Origin: a virus
DNA length: 41,522 nt
IMG/VR virus record: IMGVR_UViG_3300022821_000046
Location: 1-41,522 of that record
Reading direction: 5' to 3' (one strand)
The notes under the pieces were generated by a model. The model was not told the DNA's origin. It made no database searches and was given only the letters and a program-made list of their open reading frames with translations. Below are positions 2,598 to 41,484 of this stretch, piece after piece (positions within the stretch are counted from its first letter, which is position 1; the number at the start of each line of letters is the position of its first letter). A program made the translations under genes and the position numbers.

Positions 2598-2963
2598 TTA
2601 TTCTGCTTTCTCAGCTTCTGTTTTTATTTCAAATTCCTTAACAGAATAATTTGTGTTAAATTTGTCACCAATTTTGATGATAGAAATTCCAATTTTGTCT
2701 GTTGGTTTTCTTTCCTCAAGAAGTGGTCTTAATTTATTTTTCAATCTGTTTGAAGTTGTTGTAAATAATTTGCCATCTTTTGATGTAATTTCTTCACCGT
2801 CTTCTTCAAGAATATCTGCTACTAATTCAATTTGTTCCTTATCAAATTTCTCAACTTTTTCAAGTTTCCAATTTGTAATAACTAATTTCTTAGCTTCGCC
2901 TTCTTCAAGTGTTACAAATTTTCCACTCTTTGTTGCTTCATTCCAACTAATTTCTTCTGACAT
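2598..2963 (-). CDS. Single-stranded DNA-binding-like protein (OB-fold candidate)
   Basis: A 121-residue acidic protein. I place the start at ATG 2963 (MSEEISWNEA) because GAGGT lies 6-10 bases ahead; an in-frame ATG at 3044 would add 27 low-complexity residues with no ribosome binding site. The pattern SGKFVTLEEGE, then KNKLRPLLEE, then IGISIIKIGDKFNTNYSVKEF is the arrangement seen in viral OB-fold SSB-like proteins, with a final aromatic strand and a charged tail (KTEAEKAE). It sits among PolB, primase and other replication genes. It probably coats single-stranded DNA; assigned by pattern and context. Confidence 0.55.
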   Translation of the reverse strand: MSEEISWNEATKSGKFVTLEEGEAKKLVITNWKLEKVEKFDKEQIELVADILEEDGEEITSKDGKLFTTTSNRLKNKLRPLLEERKPTDKIGISIIKIGDKFNTNYSVKEFEIKTEAEKAE

Positions 2964-3107: not shown

Positions 3108-3254
3108 CTAATTAATTATTAAAGCATTTATTTCATTTATTTGTTTTTCTGATAATTCAATAAATATTGATGGTGATTCAGCTAAATTAATAAAATTTTT
3201 TCTAACAATACTTAAACAATTACCGTCTATTGAACAGGTTAGTTTATCTTCCAT
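3108..3254 (-). CDS. Small hypothetical protein, 48 aa
   Basis: ATG at 3254, one base after the stop of the coiled-coil gene, ending with TAG at 3110-3108. Cysteines at 7 and 13, then a helical, Ile-rich C-terminus (SEKQINEINALIIN). The tight spacing and coding-like composition support a real gene co-transcribed with its upstream neighbour. No family recognised. The 144 bases that follow, up to the SSB-like start, hold no clear TATA box; they include a short GACC-AAA-GGTC inverted repeat. Confidence 0.5.
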   Translation of the reverse strand: MEDKLTCSIDGNCLSIVRKNFINLAESPSIFIELSEKQINEINALIIN

Positions 3255-3255
3255 T

Positions 3256-3684
3256 TTATTCATCTAATTTTAATTCCTTTGGGAATTGTGCTTTTATCAT
3301 TTCTTCATATTTTACGAAGTCTAGTTTATTATCTTTAATATGTGCCTTAAACATTTTTGTGTTTAATTTTTCTAATATTGCTACTGGCATATTTTTTCTT
3401 GCCCATTCTATAGCTTCTGAATCTTCATAATCGTATGTTTTTGAAACTGCTATAGAAAGACCACCTGTTAATTGTTTGCTTCCTGTTTCTTTATATTCTA
3501 CAAGTCCTTGCTCTTTTAGTTGTTCCTTGTGATCTACCATATCTTCTTTATGTGTTTTTATTTGATTAATAATGCTACTATTTTCCACATCAAACTGTTC
3601 TTGTAGTTCTGATAATTGTTTCTCATATCTAATAACTGTATCTTCGCAGTTTTTATATTGTTTAATTAATTCTTTATTTATCAT
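3256..3684 (-). CDS. Coiled-coil early phage protein, unknown function
   Basis: A 142-residue protein. Residues 1-60 are a charged heptad-like coiled coil; residues 70-140 hold a compact domain (GGLSIAVSKTYDYEDSEAIE, then LNTKMFKAHIKD). The sequence YDYEDSEAIEWARKNMP followed by an LDFVKYEE-like end recalls a conserved phage early protein found beside recombination genes; that link is from memory and uncertain. It is the first gene of a minus-strand unit with its own TATA box and a 19-bp palindrome. Ribosome binding site GAGGT lies just before ATG 3684. Confidence 0.5.
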   Translation of the reverse strand: MINKELIKQYKNCEDTVIRYEKQLSELQEQFDVENSSIINQIKTHKEDMVDHKEQLKEQGLVEYKETGSKQLTGGLSIAVSKTYDYEDSEAIEWARKNMPVAILEKLNTKMFKAHIKDNKLDFVKYEEMIKAQFPKELKLDE

Positions 3685-3708
3685 TTTTTACCTCATTATT
3701 GTTAATTT

Positions 3709-3730
3709 GTTATATAAGTTATATAACTTA
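3709..3730 (-). promoter_or_regulatory. Palindromic operator at early minus-strand promoter
   Basis: GTTATATAAGTTATATAAC at 3709-3727 is a perfect 9+1+9 inverted repeat; TAAGTTATATAACTTA at 3715-3730 is a second perfect palindrome overlapping it. It lies around the predicted transcription start of the minus-strand unit headed by the coiled-coil gene. A 17/19 match occurs at 6644-6662 in the promoter of the RHH gene, so the RHH protein is the leading candidate to bind it and repress. Confidence 0.7.
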
Positions 3731-3738
3731 CATACTAA

Positions 3739-3746
3739 TATATAAA
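3739..3746 (-). promoter_or_regulatory. Archaeal TATA box, early minus-strand unit
   Basis: Minus-strand TTTATATA preceded by purine-rich AAAAG, which could serve as BRE. A start about 25 bases downstream falls in the palindrome at 3709-3730, 25-35 bases before ATG 3684. It drives the coiled-coil, 48-aa and SSB-like genes. Confidence 0.65.
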
Positions 3747-3759
3747 CTTTTCTATTTAT

Positions 3760-5967
3760 TCACAAATATTTGATCCCAACCCACACACGCTTATTCTCAA
3801 ATAAACCAGATTCAGCGTTTTTAATAGCTTTTTGTGAATATTTAATAGGGTTACTACTTAGTATTGCACCACATTCTTTTTTAATTTGTGGAATAATACC
3901 TTTTTCTTTACAATATTTAGTATAACTAACATGCAAATCCTCAGCAACAATATAATCAGAGTTATTTACTGTTATCTCACAACAATCTATTAAAAACGAC
4001 TTCATTGAACTAGAATTCTTGTCCCAAAAATCTTTTACTTCTTGTGTTGAAACTGAATTTGTAAATTGTCCTTTATTTTTCCAAAGTCTATGCAATCCTT
4101 CTAATGACCAATTCAACATACCACTTAATTCAGATGATGTTGTGATTTTATCTGTCATTTCAATATCAGCTATCTTATATTTACCACTAGCTTTATCTTC
4201 ATCAGACAATAAATCGTAATCAATCTGCTTCTTAAATGAGTATGGAAATTTGATTACACTCCATCTAGTAAAAAACCCATCTGATTTATCGTCAGTATCT
4301 GGTACATTATTTGCTGCAAAGAAAAACTTAGCATAATTCTTAAACTTAACTGGTGTCATAAATTTCCTATGAGCTTCAATTGAGTCACCAGATACTAATT
4401 TCTTGAACAACTGTGATTCATTAAGTTTCTGCCCACTAATATCTGCATTCATATTAACCATTTTACCAAACAATCCAGCAGCTGAGAACTTCTCTGTATC
4501 TAAATCATGTAAACTAACATTAGATATGTTACTAACACCAATCAATGATTCAAATCCATCTAATAATACAGATTTACCATTATCACCACCACCTATTAAG
4601 AAAAATGCCTTCTTATATTTATTATCTTTCCATAAACAATAACCAAAAGCCTCTTGTATTGTTTCAATATCTTTTTCTGTCTTAACAGTTGATTTTAAAA
4701 ATCCCATGAATTTCTCAGACTTAATATCTGGATTATAATATACTGGTAATTTATTAAAAAATATTCTACTAGATGTAAAACCAGATAATTTGTTTGTTCT
4801 AATATTCAATATACCATTCATTACTGGAACTTCATCTGGATATACTGTATTAAAAAAATCCTCTTCCTCAACATAAGTATCACGCATAATCTTTTCTAAA
4901 ACCAAATTATATATGTGTGTTGTAAAATATTCTTGAAGTGTCGCTCTAATAAACTGACCAATATATGATTTTCCATTAGGTATATATATTCCATTATTAT
5001 AAATCCATACCTCAGTTTTCAAATCATTCCTAGTCGTCATAATTGAATTAGACTCTAAAAACTTTGTCACTAACAATTCAGATGCGTCAGCTTTCAATTT
5101 AGCTTGTACCATTTGTTGTGCTTGTTTTATAACAGCCTTTGGAACACCAACTTTGTCGGCTAACCTGTCCTTTACTTCATTAAAACTCTCTTTATAATAT
5201 TCACTCGCTAAATCAAATATAGACCCACTTCTATTACAATGAAAACAATGATAAAAATGGTCCTCATAACTTAAACAAGCGTTACTTTCTGAACTATGAA
5301 ATGGACATCCACAATTCTTTCCACTATGTGTGTCAATATTCCATTCTTCTAACAAATCTCGAATAGTTAATTTAGATTTAATATAATTAATGACTGGATC
5401 TATTTCATCATTATTTATGTTGCCCTTTCTGTCTACTTTTTTAGGCTCAGCATTCTTAATTTCACCGATACCTGGAATCATTGTTGAACATAATTCCTTA
5501 AGTGATTCTAACGGAACATTTTGAATTTCATTATCTCTAACAACTTCATACATGTTATCTACAGTCTCTAATTTTGAGCCTGGTCCTAACACCTGTGTGC
5601 CTTTTCCTTGCAAATCTGCCACTCTAATCTTATCCACATCATATCGTGCTCCACTATCACCATCACAATAGAAATAGTAATGATATAACCCCTTAGTTGC
5701 CGTCTTACATGTGAATGTGTTCTGAAACAATGGGAGTTTCTCACACGCTTCTTGGAACTTACTAGAATCACAATCAATTACCATCAAATTGTTATGGCCA
5801 CACAACACACCATATTTCGGTACATTCATAGTGCCTAATTCTTCATATGAATAGTTCTGCTCTTTGTTCCAACCTTTTTCATATGGTACTTTGCATATTT
5901 TTGGGTTTTTACTTGGTGTTATCAATATAAATCGTTGGTTGATTAGTTGTTTGGGTATGTTAAGCAT
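3760..5967 (-). CDS. Primase-polymerase / CHC2 zinc finger / SF3 helicase fusion
   Basis: A 735-residue replication protein. Residues 1-165: archaeo-eukaryotic primase (prim-pol) domain with the DxD pair D65/D67 in VIDCDSS and a downstream YHYYF plus GTQVLGPGS stretch. Residues 190-260: CHC2-type zinc finger with C221, H224, C241, C244. Residues 300-450: D5-type linker. Residues 455-620: SF3 helicase with Walker A GGGDNGKS (459-466), a Walker B-like NMNADISG, and motif C in FFFAANNVP. The C-terminal 100 residues resemble the winged helix usual in this family. It should both prime and unwind. Having both an AEP-type primase and a DnaG-type CHC2 finger is notable. ATG 5967 overlaps the end of the YopX-like gene. 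Confidence 0.9.
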   Translation of the reverse strand: MLNIPKQLINQRFILITPSKNPKICKVPYEKGWNKEQNYSYEELGTMNVPKYGVLCGHNNLMVIDCDSSKFQEACEKLPLFQNTFTCKTATKGLYHYYFYCDGDSGARYDVDKIRVADLQGKGTQVLGPGSKLETVDNMYEVVRDNEIQNVPLESLKELCSTMIPGIGEIKNAEPKKVDRKGNINNDEIDPVINYIKSKLTIRDLLEEWNIDTHSGKNCGCPFHSSESNACLSYEDHFYHCFHCNRSGSIFDLASEYYKESFNEVKDRLADKVGVPKAVIKQAQQMVQAKLKADASELLVTKFLESNSIMTTRNDLKTEVWIYNNGIYIPNGKSYIGQFIRATLQEYFTTHIYNLVLEKIMRDTYVEEEDFFNTVYPDEVPVMNGILNIRTNKLSGFTSSRIFFNKLPVYYNPDIKSEKFMGFLKSTVKTEKDIETIQEAFGYCLWKDNKYKKAFFLIGGGDNGKSVLLDGFESLIGVSNISNVSLHDLDTEKFSAAGLFGKMVNMNADISGQKLNESQLFKKLVSGDSIEAHRKFMTPVKFKNYAKFFFAANNVPDTDDKSDGFFTRWSVIKFPYSFKKQIDYDLLSDEDKASGKYKIADIEMTDKITTSSELSGMLNWSLEGLHRLWKNKGQFTNSVSTQEVKDFWDKNSSSMKSFLIDCCEITVNNSDYIVAEDLHVSYTKYCKEKGIIPQIKKECGAILSSNPIKYSQKAIKNAESGLFENKRVWVGIKYL

Positions 5968-6115
5968 TATGCATCACCCATTCAACTATTAAATTATCTG
6001 TGTAAATTATCAAATTACCCTCTTTACTGAACAATCTTCCATCTTGTGACATCAATATATCATCAATATAACATTTATTCTTATTATCCCACACTCTAAA
6101 TTTTTTATCACTCAT
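5960..6115 (-). CDS. YopX-like small protein
   Basis: A 51-residue frame from ATG 6115 to TAA 5962-5960. The N-terminus KKFRVWDNKNKCYI matches the KFRxWD opening typical of YopX-family phage proteins, but it is much shorter than the usual 120 or so residues, so it is a minimal or truncated member. It overlaps the 6108-6428 gene by 8 bases and the primase by 8 bases, so all three are co-translated. The function of the family is unknown. Confidence 0.6.
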   Translation of the reverse strand: MSDKKFRVWDNKNKCYIDDILMSQDGRLFSKEGNLIIYTDNLIVEWVMHNA

Positions 6116-6428
6116 TGTTCATACCCACTATCCCATATTCACTTTTATACACAGATAAATCTATATTCTCATTTAATTCAATTTTTGTCAAAAGTTTATC
6201 AACTTCTTCCCTATTTAATGCCAAATTTGGAACTGCATTATCTGCTGGACTAATTACTATAGATCTAAAATTATTATTCATAATTGTTAACCCTGTGCCA
6301 CAATATATGAACAATTTTTCGTCTTTTATTAACACTTTTAAAACTTTATCACAAATATTAAATTCAACCGTTTTGAAGTCTTTTGATATAATTTTTAACA
6401 CCTCTGTTTTTTCTATAAAAAATATCAT
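6108..6428 (-). CDS. Hypothetical protein, first gene of the replication operon
   Basis: Up to 106 residues, mixed alpha/beta (EVLKIISKDFKTVEFNICD, then KLFIYCGTGLTIM). No family recognised. The ATG at 6428 lies only about 12 bases from a TATA-like TTTATATA (minus strand, 6447-6440), so if that box is used transcription would start inside the frame and a GTG at 6401 (residue 10) would be the start. An alternative TATA-like site is in the palindrome at 6479-6492. It leads the YopX-like and primase genes. Confidence 0.6.
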   Translation of the reverse strand: MIFFIEKTEVLKIISKDFKTVEFNICDKVLKVLIKDEKLFIYCGTGLTIMNNNFRSIVISPADNAVPNLALNREEVDKLLTKIELNENIDLSVYKSEYGIVGMNNE

Positions 6429-6632
6429 ATTGGTGAAAGTATATAAAACTTTCTATTATTTCGTGATTATTGTGGTAAAAAGTATATACTTTACTCTTTT
6501 TCTATCACGAAAATCACAATAATCGCACTTTCCATATTCCTCAGTTCAGTAAAAATTAATATACCTATAGGGTGCAAAACCACGATTATCTTGATTATCT
6601 TGATAGATTAACATTTATGCATAACAGGAATA
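6429..6632. promoter_or_regulatory. Divergent control region, possible origin
   Basis: No gene is seen. The stretch lies between the minus-strand replication operon and the plus-strand RHH gene. It contains a 10-bp inverted repeat (GATTATTGTG 6465-6474 and CACAATAATC 6515-6524), a perfect palindrome AAAGTATATACTTT (6479-6492) at its centre, a TCGTGAT/ATCACGA pair, and a direct repeat of GATTATCTT at 6584-6601. The recurring GATTAT half-site suggests binding of a regulator or initiator. Origin function is inference from position beside the primase-helicase. Confidence 0.45.
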
Positions 6633-6662
6633 TTTATATATAAGTTATACAACTTATATAAC
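6633..6662 (+). promoter_or_regulatory. RHH gene promoter: TATA box plus operator
   Basis: TTTATATA at 6633-6640, then GTTATACAACTTATATAAC at 6644-6662, which matches the 3709-3727 operator at 17 of 19 bases. The expected start is at about 6660-6666, so the ATG at 6666 would be translated from a leaderless or near-leaderless message, and a protein on the operator would cover the start site. Fits simple autorepression. Confidence 0.7.
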
Positions 6663-6665
6663 ATT

Positions 6666-6788
6666 ATGGCGATAAAAAGAATATCAATAAGTGTGGACGA
6701 AGATGACATGAATTATTGTGAAAATAGAAACATAAATAAGTCTAAATTATTTAGAAAAGCTGTCCAACAACATCGAGAGTATAAATAA
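6666..6788 (+). CDS. Ribbon-helix-helix (CopG/MetJ-type) regulator
   Basis: A 40-residue protein: a short N-terminal strand (IKRISISVDEDD) followed by two helices (MNYCENRNI, and NKSKLFRKAVQQHREY), the minimal ribbon-helix-helix pattern with alternating Arg/Ser in the strand for base contacts. RHH dimers bind short inverted repeats in the major groove, which suits the palindromes at 6644 and 3709. It is the first plus-strand gene, placed against the divergent early operon, and is therefore the likely early-gene switch. The start follows a TATA box by 33 bases. Confidence 0.8.
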   Translation: MAIKRISISVDEDDMNYCENRNINKSKLFRKAVQQHREYK

Positions 6789-11482: not shown

Positions 11483-12739
11483 ATGCAGATAGAATATAAA
11501 AATTGTGTATTAGACCAACAGGCATTATTTGATACTATTGGTTATGCTCCCCATCCCAAGCAATGGATATTGCATAATTCGAATTCTAAGTTTAGAGTAT
11601 TAGCATGTGGAAGACGATGGGGTAAATCAGTCTCTGCAGCAGCTGAAGTAATGAAAGGAGCAGTCATACCAAATCAAATGTTATGGTGTGTTGCTCCAAC
11701 ATATGATTTAGCACGAAAGGTATTCAGAGAAGTATATAAATATTTTACACATAAGCTTCCACATTGGATTGAAGTAAAATCAGAATCACGTATGTATTTA
11801 AAATTAATTAACGGCACTGTTATTGAAGGAAAGTCAGCAGATAACCCAGATTCTTTGATAGGAGAGGGTGTTGATGGGATGATAATAGATGAAGCTGCTC
11901 GTATTAAGAAAACAACATGGGAAGAAAGTTTATTACCTACTTTAACAGATAAAGACGGATGGTGCATTGCTATTTCTACTCCAAGAGGACGTAATTGGTT
12001 TCATGAGATTTTTGTTGAAGGACAAGATAATTTGATAATGGATGTATCAAGCTGGACATTCCCTAGTATTACTAATCCATACTTAAATCCGGATGTAATT
12101 GCAGCTCAAAAGAGAAGGATCTCAAGTAGAGCAGCAGAACAAGAATATGATGCTATATTTTTAACAGATACAGGTGGTGTATTCAGAAATGTAAGAGGAT
12201 GTGTCAGTGGTGAACTAAGAACAATAGCAGAAGGAAATGTTAATTATGTTATGGGTGTAGATCTAGCCAAGTATCAAGATTTTACAGTATTAATCGTAAT
12301 AGACACCAGAGATAATCATGTTGTTTACTTTGATAGATTCAATAAGATAGATTGGAAGTTACAAAAAGATCGTATCATAGCAACAGCCAAGAAATTCAAC
12401 GATGCCAAAGTACATTTAGATGCAACTGGATTGGGAGATCCAATACTTGATGATTTAAGAGGAACTGGAATGAATATTATAGGACATAAATTTAATAATA
12501 AGTTTAAGAATGATATTATTGATAATTTATCCATGATGATTGAAACACAGGAGATTACATTCCCAGAGATTGAAGTTTTAATTAACGAGCTTACTATATT
12601 TGAGTATGAAATCACAGCAAGTGGTAGAACAAGACTAAATGCACCAGAAGGATATCATGATGATTGTGTCTGCAGTTTAGCATTAGGATGTATTGGAGCA
12701 ATGTCGAATAGAACTTGTGATTCCTTCGAAATAGCCTAA
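11483..12739 (+). CDS. terL: Terminase large subunit
   Basis: DNA-packaging motor, 418 residues. ATPase domain: Walker A CGRRWGKS (42-49), Walker B MIIDEA (133-138), coupling motif STPRG (165-169). Nuclease domain with RNase H fold: D260 in GVDLAKYQDF, D313 in HLDATGLGD, and the DDC acidic pair near 399. All catalytic positions are present. It pumps genomic DNA into the prohead through the portal and cuts it. The gene begins 2 bases after the previous stop and is followed by a strong late promoter, so portal and terminase can be expressed separately. Confidence 0.95.
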   Translation: MQIEYKNCVLDQQALFDTIGYAPHPKQWILHNSNSKFRVLACGRRWGKSVSAAAEVMKGAVIPNQMLWCVAPTYDLARKVFREVYKYFTHKLPHWIEVKSESRMYLKLINGTVIEGKSADNPDSLIGEGVDGMIIDEAARIKKTTWEESLLPTLTDKDGWCIAISTPRGRNWFHEIFVEGQDNLIMDVSSWTFPSITNPYLNPDVIAAQKRRISSRAAEQEYDAIFLTDTGGVFRNVRGCVSGELRTIAEGNVNYVMGVDLAKYQDFTVLIVIDTRDNHVVYFDRFNKIDWKLQKDRIIATAKKFNDAKVHLDATGLGDPILDDLRGTGMNIIGHKFNNKFKNDIIDNLSMMIETQEITFPEIEVLINELTIFEYEITASGRTRLNAPEGYHDDCVCSLALGCIGAMSNRTCDSFEIA

Positions 12740-12788
12740 ATTATATAATTAAGATAATAACATTTAAATATTAATAAAAATATATTTT
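12739..12788 (+). promoter_or_regulatory. Late promoter P1 (portal): palindrome, TATA, start element
   Basis: AATTATATAATT at 12739-12750 (perfect palindrome), 12 bases, TTTAAATA at 12763-12770, then AAAAATATATTTT around the expected start at about 12790. The same three-part layout recurs at 17179 and 22643. The palindrome lies at about -50, upstream of TATA/BRE, as an activator site would. Confidence 0.75.
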
Positions 12789-17160: not shown

Positions 17161-17178
17161 AAACCTTATTTTCTTCTT

Positions 17179-17230
17179 AATTATATAATTAGGTTAATAA
17201 CATTTAAATATTATAAAAAATATATTTTCT
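17179..17230 (+). promoter_or_regulatory. Late promoter P2 (protease, scaffold, capsid)
   Basis: AATTATATAATT at 17179-17190, 12 bases (AGGTTAATAACA), TTTAAATA at 17203-17210, then AAAAAATATATTTT near the expected start at about 17230. Nearly identical to P1 over more than 40 bases despite lying between unrelated genes. Drives the capsid genes. Confidence 0.75.
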
Positions 17231-22273: not shown

Positions 22274-22644
22274 AAAAGGTTAATATATTAGGAGTTAATA
22301 AAGCAATAGGATATTTGAGTGGTAGAGGTAAAGCGATTGATGCAGCAACCAAAAAAGGTGTTGAACAAGCCACATTATATGTAGAAGGGCAAGTAAAAGA
22401 TAGTATTGCTGGAAGAAATGCAGAACCACGAAGTGTTGACACAGGACTTTTTATGAAGACAGTATATTCAAAAACAAAAGGTGCATCAGGAACAGTAGCA
22501 AGTAATGTAGAATATTCAGGCGAGTTAGAACACGGTTCATCTAAAAGACAAGGTAGATATCATTTTAGAAATACATTAGCAAGAACAAAAGGTAAAGTAG
22601 AAACATACATCAGAGATAAAGTAAAAAAGGCAACACATTTATAA
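22270..22644 (+). CDS. HK97 gp10-like head-tail/tail completion protein
   Basis: A 124-residue protein with the typical helix VEQATLYVEGQVKDSI, the loop RSVDTGLFMKTVYSKT, the strand ASNVEYSGELEHGSSKRQGR (the family's conserved Y-x3-E-G) and a final helix. Proteins of this family complete the head-tail interface or the tail terminator ring. Late promoter P3 begins at its stop codon. Confidence 0.75.
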   Translation: MKKVNILGVNKAIGYLSGRGKAIDAATKKGVEQATLYVEGQVKDSIAGRNAEPRSVDTGLFMKTVYSKTKGASGTVASNVEYSGELEHGSSKRQGRYHFRNTLARTKGKVETYIRDKVKKATHL

Positions 22645-22690
22645 TTATATAATTAGGTTAATTAAATTTAAATAAGATAAAAAATATATT
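22643..22690 (+). promoter_or_regulatory. Late promoter P3 (tail operon)
   Basis: AATTATATAATT at 22643-22654, overlapping the stop of the gp10-like gene, 12 bases (AGGTTAATTAAA), TTTAAATA at 22667-22674, then AAAAAATATATTTT. It matches P1 and P2 in order and spacing. Expected start about 22694; the tail genes follow. Confidence 0.75.
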
Positions 22691-32328: not shown

Positions 32329-32331
32329 CTT

Positions 32332-32363
32332 AATTATATAATTATGGTAATAAGGTTTATATA
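32332..32363 (+). promoter_or_regulatory. Late promoter P4 (32389 operon)
   Basis: AATTATATAATT at 32332-32343, 12 bases (ATGGTAATAAGG), TTTATATA at 32356-32363. The ATG at 32389 is 33 bases after the TATA start, so the transcript is leaderless or nearly so. Same geometry as P1-P3. Confidence 0.75.
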
Positions 32364-33387: not shown

Positions 33388-33404
33388 ATAGTAATTATAT
33401 AATT
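33383..33404 (+). promoter_or_regulatory. AbrB-like gene promoter with palindrome inside the core
   Basis: TTTAAATA at 33383-33390 and, only 2 bases on, AATTATATAATT at 33393-33404. The ATG at 33413 lies at the expected start, so the message is leaderless. Here the palindrome lies between TATA and start, where a bound protein would block RNA polymerase, in contrast to its upstream place in P1-P4. Confidence 0.75.
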
Positions 33405-40308: not shown

Positions 40309-40634
40309 TTTTCCCTCTTATTTTTGGATAATTGTGTGTATTCTCCTTTTTTAATTGCTTCAACTACTTTTTCTAAAACTATCCCTCTAGAATCTAGTGG
40401 ATAGCTAAGAACATTATCTAATTGTTCTAATATTTCTTTTCTTGAAATAAATTCATCTACACTTGATTCTGAAACAATTAATTCATCATTGTTTTCCATA
40501 AATTTTTCAAATTCATCACAACCATAACATTTAGGTTCATAGCTTTCTGGTTCTGTTTGATTATGTAAATCACATTTTTTACTATCACAAAAAGCATTTC
40601 CAAGTAAATCTTCATCTTTATAATATATTTTCAT
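40305..40634 (-). CDS. Cys-rich acidic protein, 109 aa
   Basis: N-terminal cysteines (FCDSKKCDLHNQ, KCYGCDEFEKF) form a four-Cys zinc-type cluster; the C-terminal half is helical (FISRKEILEQLDNVLSYPLD, VLEKVVEAIKKGEY). This C-x4-C ... C-x2-C layout resembles that of the mini protein at 2392. It overlaps the repeat-protein gene by 17 bases. Function unknown. Confidence 0.5.
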   Translation of the reverse strand: MKIYYKDEDLLGNAFCDSKKCDLHNQTEPESYEPKCYGCDEFEKFMENNDELIVSESSVDEFISRKEILEQLDNVLSYPLDSRGIVLEKVVEAIKKGEYTQLSKNKREK

Positions 40635-41484
40635 TTTTTATCCTCTTGCCCTCTTCTTTTTTTTGATATTTTCGGATGGCATCTTTTTTTAATTTCATTT
40701 TACTTATTTTAAAAACTACTTTAGCTTCTTTCCCTGAATGTAATCTCCAATATTTTCCATCAAAACTTGGAACTAATCCTTGTTTCCAAAGTTTAACTAC
40801 TGGCATAAATGGATATTCTTTTGTTTTAATGTTCTCTGTATATTTCCATTTGTTTCTACTTATCTTAAAATTATATACAATATAAGCCCCAACAGAATCC
40901 CCAACAGAAGCCCCAACAGAATCCCAAACAGAATCCCTAACAGAATCCCTAACAGAAGCTCCAACAGAATCCCAAACAGAATCCCAAACAGAAGCCCCAA
41001 CAGAAGCTCCAACAGAATCCCAAACAGAATCCCTAACAGAAGCTCCAACAGAAGCTCCAACAGAATCCCAAACAGAAGCCATAACAGAAGCTCCAACAGA
41101 ATCCCATTGTTTTAATAGTTTAATATGTTGTTTTGTTGGTTTCTTCACCATTGGAATATCATTAAAAGGATGGATTAAATTTTTTAATTTATTTATATGT
41201 AATTTCTTCCTTAATTGTGTATTCCATTCTTTATGTGCTGACCAACAAGCTTTTTCATGTGATACTTTCCACCAATCTGGACAATTATCATCAAACTTAA
41301 ATATCCATTCATCAGGTTCAACATAGTTATTATTCTTAGGTACTATTTCTATTGCACATTGATTTCTTTTCTTATTTTCTCTATCTAATTTAAATTTGTC
41401 AATAATATCTTCGTGACTATCTATCCCTAACTTCCAACAAACTTTCCTATTTCTTGTTATTATACAACTAAATGCTTTACACAT
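40618..41484 (-). CDS. Tetrapeptide-repeat protein (xSVx repeats)
   Basis: A 288-residue protein. Residues 1-125: a conserved-looking domain (MCKAFSCIITRNRKVCWKLG, IDSHEDIIDKF ... EKACWSAHKEWN) that I recall from archaeal and phage proteins of unknown role. Residues 127-200: 18 tandem tetrapeptides of the form D/A-S-V-G/W/R/M. Residues 205-288: mixed domain (YPFMPVVKLWKQGLVPSFDG, KYWRLHSGKEAKVVFK) and a basic tail. The repeat would form a regular solenoid or stalk. GAGGTG precedes ATG 41484. First gene visible of the right-hand minus block. Confidence 0.65.
   Translation of the reverse strand: MCKAFSCIITRNRKVCWKLGIDSHEDIIDKFKLDRENKKRNQCAIEIVPKNNNYVEPDEWIFKFDDNCPDWWKVSHEKACWSAHKEWNTQLRKKLHINKLKNLIHPFNDIPMVKKPTKQHIKLLKQWDSVGASVMASVWDSVGASVGASVRDSVWDSVGASVGASVWDSVWDSVGASVRDSVRDSVWDSVGASVGDSVGAYIVYNFKISRNKWKYTENIKTKEYPFMPVVKLWKQGLVPSFDGKYWRLHSGKEAKVVFKISKMKLKKDAIRKYQKKEEGKRIKNENIL
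40887..41103 (-). repeat. 12-bp tandem repeat, 18 units, in frame
   Basis: About 18 imperfect copies of a 12-base unit (plus-strand form ACAGAATCCCAA and variants). Serine and valine codons are constant; only the first codon (GAT or GCT) and the fourth (GGG, TGG, AGG, ATG) vary. Unit length is a multiple of three, so gain or loss of copies keeps the frame. Confidence 0.85.

Follow-up and report, generated by a model that had tools for sequence, protein, structure and literature searches.

A putative autorepressor of the RHH kind and its two near-identical operators in a probable archaeal tailed virus

Two promoters of a tailed-virus genome carry near-identical 24-bp palindromes, one directly before the gene of a 40-aa RHH-like protein and the other before a leftward gene unit. 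We propose, with a probability of roughly 75%, that the 40-aa protein acts as an autorepressor whose regulon would comprise two promoters, that of its own gene and that of the leftward unit. The window analyzed is the whole of IMG/VR virus record IMGVR_UViG_3300022821_000046 (41,522 bp; 30.5% G+C by base counts). Small RHH autorepressors of archaeal viruses are an already known kind; the least expected part of the finding is that the same operator word stands beside unrelated bacterial RHH genes.

Two near-identical sites at two promoters

The features of the two promoters and of the genes behind them are:

~2565–2590: hairpin with T-run, after the 121-aa gene
2598–2963, minus strand: gene of a 121-aa protein, probably the SSB-like gene of an earlier note on this DNA; may have its own promoter
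3108–3263, minus strand: gene of a 51-aa protein of the leftward unit, overlapping the end of the 142-aa gene
3256–3684, minus strand: gene of a 142-aa protein of no named family, the first behind operator 1
3711–3734, minus strand: operator 1, 24-bp near-palindrome with halves TATGTAAGTTAT and ATAACTTATATA, in the leftward-unit promoter
3739–3746, minus strand: TATA box TTTATATA for the gene at 3684
6633–6640, plus strand: RHH gene TATA box TTTATATA, its centre ~29 nt upstream of the ATG
6637–6660, plus strand: operator 2, 24-bp near-palindrome with halves TATATAAGTTAT and ACAACTTATATA, in the RHH gene promoter
6666–6788, plus strand: gene of the 40-aa RHH-like protein, with no Shine-Dalgarno sequence

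The earlier note had described two 19-mers, at 3709–3727 in the operator 1 region and at 6644–6662 in the operator 2 region, agreeing at 17 of 19 positions. Both are exact at those coordinates, and the count is that of plus strand against plus strand. Since the gene at 3684 lies on the minus strand, gene orientation is the right comparison, and in it the agreement rises to 18 of 19 and, over the extended sites TAAGTTATATAACTTATATAACA (3730–3708, minus strand) and TAAGTTATACAACTTATATAACA (6641–6663, plus strand), to 22 of 23, with the consensus TAAGTTATAyAACTTATATAACA. The likeness is real and had been understated. Both near-palindromes are centred between GTTAT and ATAAC; an alternative reading divides each into three 9-bp units, TTATATAAS.

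The two sites are unique in the record. A scan with the 19-mer at up to three mismatches returned six matches, each of which was one of the two sites read on either strand or in a shifted register (0.10 expected from 100 dinucleotide shuffles), and the best other 23-mer match in the window, at 12737, has five mismatches. The genome-wide motif search that the earlier note had proposed as a check thus yields only two copies in 41.5 kb, and the chance recurrence in coding DNA that it had named as a refutation does not occur within three mismatches beyond the two sites. In 60 trials with shuffled intergenic pairs, the best 23-mer agreement left five to eight mismatches, compared with the one observed. 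Both copies are non-coding, in a record with a non-coding share of only ~8%.

Both sites lie at TATA-box promoters, the second directly preceding the RHH gene, as had been claimed. Operator 1 starts 4 nt downstream of the TATA box at 3746–3739, which places the expected start (~3716) inside it; start positions are those predicted from normal archaeal spacing. The gene at 3684 has a predicted leader of ~30 nt with a GAGGT Shine-Dalgarno sequence. At the RHH gene, the TATA box overlaps the left end of operator 2, which fills the stretch between that box and the expected start (~6662–6666) and ends 5 nt before the ATG. The earlier statement that the sites overlap the expected starts therefore holds for operator 1 and is too narrow for operator 2, which covers the TBP/TFB/RNAP region and not the start only. 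Sigma-70-like promoters in the region did not exceed chance level.

The intergenic region 6429–6665, from which the leftward and rightward units diverge, also contains the inverted and repeated GATTATTGTG (6465, 6515) and GATTATCTT (6584, 6593). The sign of the GC skew switches in this region and a second time near 39 kb, and the skew also tracks gene direction; the region, beside the RHH promoter, is a candidate replication origin.

The virus and its RHH-like protein

The record encodes a tailed-virus set (TerL, portal with a Mu-F-like domain, prohead protease, capsid, tail tube and tape measure), a PrimPol/D5-type primase-helicase and a family B DNA polymerase. Among phage records, the largest group of polymerase matches is that of haloarchaeal tailed viruses, all at low identity. 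Three genes that lack a Shine-Dalgarno sequence (6666, 32389 and 33413) have the element TTTAWATA centred 26–29 nt upstream of the ATG (0.04 expected), and Shine-Dalgarno sequences are present at many internal genes. Based on the polymerase matches and these TATA-like elements, the virus is probably archaeal and would begin some of its units with leaderless transcripts; the transcript of the gene at 6666–6788 is probably of this type. Near the end of the record (40618–41484, minus strand), a 288-aa ORF carries GASVWDSV/RDSVGASV-like repeats at ~40888–41110 and has no Pfam match.

A second, shorter record (IMGVR_UViG_3300035698_011486, 29.7 kb; stretches L003, L004, L006 and L007) is 100% identical over the compared stretches and represents the same virus, so that it adds no independent evidence of conservation. 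Searches with the 142-aa protein, primase, PolB and TerL found only this copy and an 80–85% relative (L008/L085/L089), whose sequence does not include the operator region; the more distant relatives L086 and L087 have no such operator site. As no relative covering the operator region was found, the virus lineage offers no conservation test.

The 40-aa protein (MAIKRISISVDEDDMNYCENRNINKSKLFRKAVQQHREYK) scores 19.0 bits against Pfam RHH_1 (E=0.0013), below the family cut-off of 20.5, and 15.1 bits with the CcdA profile. An AlphaFold2 monomer (pLDDT 78) has helices at residues 12–20 and 28–39 with no strand formed, and the alternating KRISISV ahead of helix 1 fits a strand. As judged by the strand-helix-helix order, its length and the operator, the protein is likely an RHH protein despite a score under the formal cut-off. 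Archaeal cell-cycle RHH regulators of the aCcr1 family (NCBIfam NF053762) are likewise very short and have viral homologues, but the window protein reaches only 17.1 bits against them, far below the 60-bit cut-off. A sequence search against PDB chains gave no match, and tblastn against phages gave weak matches only, nearly all in mycobacteriophages and annotated as primase.

The description of the leftward genes as an SSB-like operon is partly right. The first gene behind operator 1 encodes the 142-aa protein, which has no family match by profile search (Pfam, PHROGs) and is largely helical in a low-confidence model (pLDDT 61). The SSB candidate (2598–2963) lies farther down and likewise matches no family in Pfam or PHROGs, so that neither gene has an SSB/OB-fold profile match there. 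The 144 nt between the preceding gene and the 121-aa gene contain the TATA-like CTATATGG, and the 121-aa gene may have a promoter of its own. The stretch from the primase gene to 3684 showed no site resembling an intrinsic terminator, so transcription may run on from the upstream primase gene into the leftward unit and could give a basal level.

The operator word in other elements

Among 2.9 million viral contigs, AAGTTATANAACTTATATAAC occurs only in the second copy of this virus and in one further contig (L005), there directly before an RHH gene (MAVDKDKNTQVLVTFPNEMLDEIKEFWHNEKLSNRNVAIRTLITKGLEK...). The word RTAAGTTATAYAACTTATA occurs in 33 stretches of viral contigs, 23 of which adjoin an RHH gene: one is the second copy of this virus, 21 lie beside members of the RHH family seen in L005 (~50–60 aa), mostly with a divergent integrase and largely a single integrase/rhh family of Bacillota, and in L016 the neighbor is a different phage RHH-like gene. 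The remaining ten have no RHH linkage, seven of them being one phage family. In L014, L029, L035, L036, L042, L043 and L044, which form a phage family, RTAAGTTATATAACTTATA lies 23 bp before a conserved gene (LDPFTMA...) and is not RHH-adjacent. In 257 Gb of genomes, RTAAGTTATAYAACTTATA occurs in only 36 stretches, nine of them RHH-linked as assigned by eye (seven of the integrase/rhh type, L051 and L073); in L051, the protein scores above the RHH_1 cut-off and the RHH start lies 121 bp from the word. These counts are not independent events but stem from few lineages: counted by lineage, the linkage is present in the window virus, the Bacillota family and L016, probably in L073 and weakly in L051. 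A search of open-licence papers gave no instance of the operator word.

The Bacillota elements (Anoxybacillus, Halobacillus, Salipaludibacillus, Paenibacillus, Tissierellia) resemble the window in having the word just before the RHH gene and a second copy at the divergent promoter; they differ in their RHH family, in their bacterial promoters with Shine-Dalgarno sequences and in their tyrosine integrase partner (the three partner genes tested match PF00589 in Pfam). Among 22 distinct integrase/rhh intergenic regions, conservation of the rhh-side operator is no test, since it was the search key; the second copy on the integrase side, GTTATATAAnnTATATAAC, which was not the search key, is present in most. 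BLASTP did not align the window protein with the Bacillota RHH, and the strand residues presumed to face the DNA are not the same in the two; from sequence, shared specificity would not be expected. In Komagataeibacter phage phiKX2, an RHH homologue is preceded by TGGTTATATAACCA and GGTTATCTAACC; a Geobacillus phage homologue has no such operator upstream.

A further arrangement is found in a Eubacteriaceae MAG (L073), where a ParA gene and a small gene are flanked by arrays of the 9-bp unit TATATAAGT in 6.7 and 14.8 copies (genes and arrays at 3427–3498, 3518–4279, 4282–4593 and 4587–4719 of that stretch). Like the window, the locus has tandem 9-bp units beside a gene with an RHH-like C-terminus, an assignment made by eye with no Pfam match; it differs in its long arrays beside a ParA gene, a centromere-like layout that is probably a partition locus of the ParA/RHH type. 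Three perfect 9-bp units were not found in viral contigs.

A candidate repression circuit and its alternatives

We infer binding, stoichiometry, repression and timing as follows. RHH dimers would bind the palindrome (halves TATRTAAGTTAT and AYAACTTATATA), probably two or three side by side on the 9-bp-spaced units TTATATAAS. At its own promoter, bound protein would cover the stretch from TATA box to start and hold its own level down; at 3711–3734 it would cover the start region of the leftward promoter before the 142-aa gene, and once accumulated it would keep the replication-side unit behind operator 1 low. Repression would work by promoter occlusion, the mode reported for SvtR and F55 (PMC5569661). 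Self-repression and repression of the unit at 3684 had already been put forward in the earlier note, and the same word adjoining RHH genes in unrelated elements gives that reading good comparative support; what falls short is its SSB-like operon label.

SvtR of SIRV1, an archaeal rudivirus RHH repressor, is likewise small and virus-encoded and represses its own and a few other viral promoters (PMC5569661), but its consensus ATnnTTCAAnAnnnnnAAAATG is unrelated to the window operator, its main target is a structural gene, and no PDB chain matches the window protein by sequence. F55 of SSV1, an RHH regulator with a demonstrated role in lysogeny (PMC5569661, PMC9608457), has a few closely similar repeated sites over the start or BRE of early promoters and of its own promoter; in contrast to the window protein, it reads tandem ATAGATAGAGT, and the window proteins that were scanned include no integrase. 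As in these two systems, a specific site occurs, as judged from sequence, in the promoter of the RHH gene itself and in a further viral promoter (22/23 sites, two promoters only).

Could the palindromes be operators of another protein, with the RHH gene merely one target? The gene of a winged-helix protein (2088–2378; HTH_27, E=2.3e-05) lies downstream and shares the strand of operator 1, palindromes of ~20 bp are common targets of this protein type, and a host regulator might serve as well. The hairpin with T-run, however, separates the leftward unit from the winged-helix gene, and the word recurs beside RHH genes and not winged-helix genes (Bacillota family, L016 and probably L073), which makes this reading unlikely. 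That the two sites resemble each other only because core promoters are AT-rich, with no repressor at all, is highly improbable: TTATATAA does resemble an archaeal TATA box in a record of 30.5% G+C, but the 23-base identity lies beyond all shuffles, each of the two sites has a separate TATA box, the operator word is absent from the virus's other TATA promoters, and the word is tied to RHH genes in other elements.

The core TTATATAA recurs in a second element. In four rightward promoters before late or structural genes, TAATTATATAATTA-RGRTAAT precedes a TATA box at a constant distance (four found, 0.00 expected):

12738–12770, plus strand: late-promoter element
17178–17210, plus strand: late-promoter element
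22642–22674, plus strand: late-promoter element
32331–32363, plus strand: late-promoter element

In three of the four, AAAATATATTTT follows downstream, and the 80–85% relative has three of the copies conserved in matching positions (L085 2343 and 9584; L089 ~3798). At 33393, a late-type palindrome lies downstream of the TATA box instead.

The palindrome of the four late promoters stands a constant distance upstream of the TATA box, the position of an activator site, and it is conserved in a relative. The RHH protein might then also read TAATTATATAATTA and bring about an early-to-late switch, as repressor at operators 1 and 2 and as activator at the late promoters. We regard this as very unlikely, because the outer G/C of GTTATATAAC, kept in the window, Bacillota and phiKX2 sites, is replaced by A/T in all late sites, which suggests that a different protein probably reads the late element. 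Somewhat speculative, and on balance improbable, is a broader proposal in which unrelated RHH proteins (of an archaeal virus, Bacillota integrase elements and a bacterial ParA/RHH locus) have come to use a single word, AAGTTATATAACTT, built on 9-bp TTATATAAS units, despite differences in the residues presumed to face the DNA, and in which one RHH protein could set an early-to-late switch via TTATATAA at late promoters.

The preferred reading, autorepression by the 40-aa protein with control of the leftward unit, would amount to a small, complete and directly testable circuit of one 40-aa protein and two operators, in a group, the tailed viruses of uncultivated archaea, whose gene regulation is little studied. 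It also suggests that an RHH operator can be recognized by its DNA word across very distant elements, even where the proteins share no detectable similarity.
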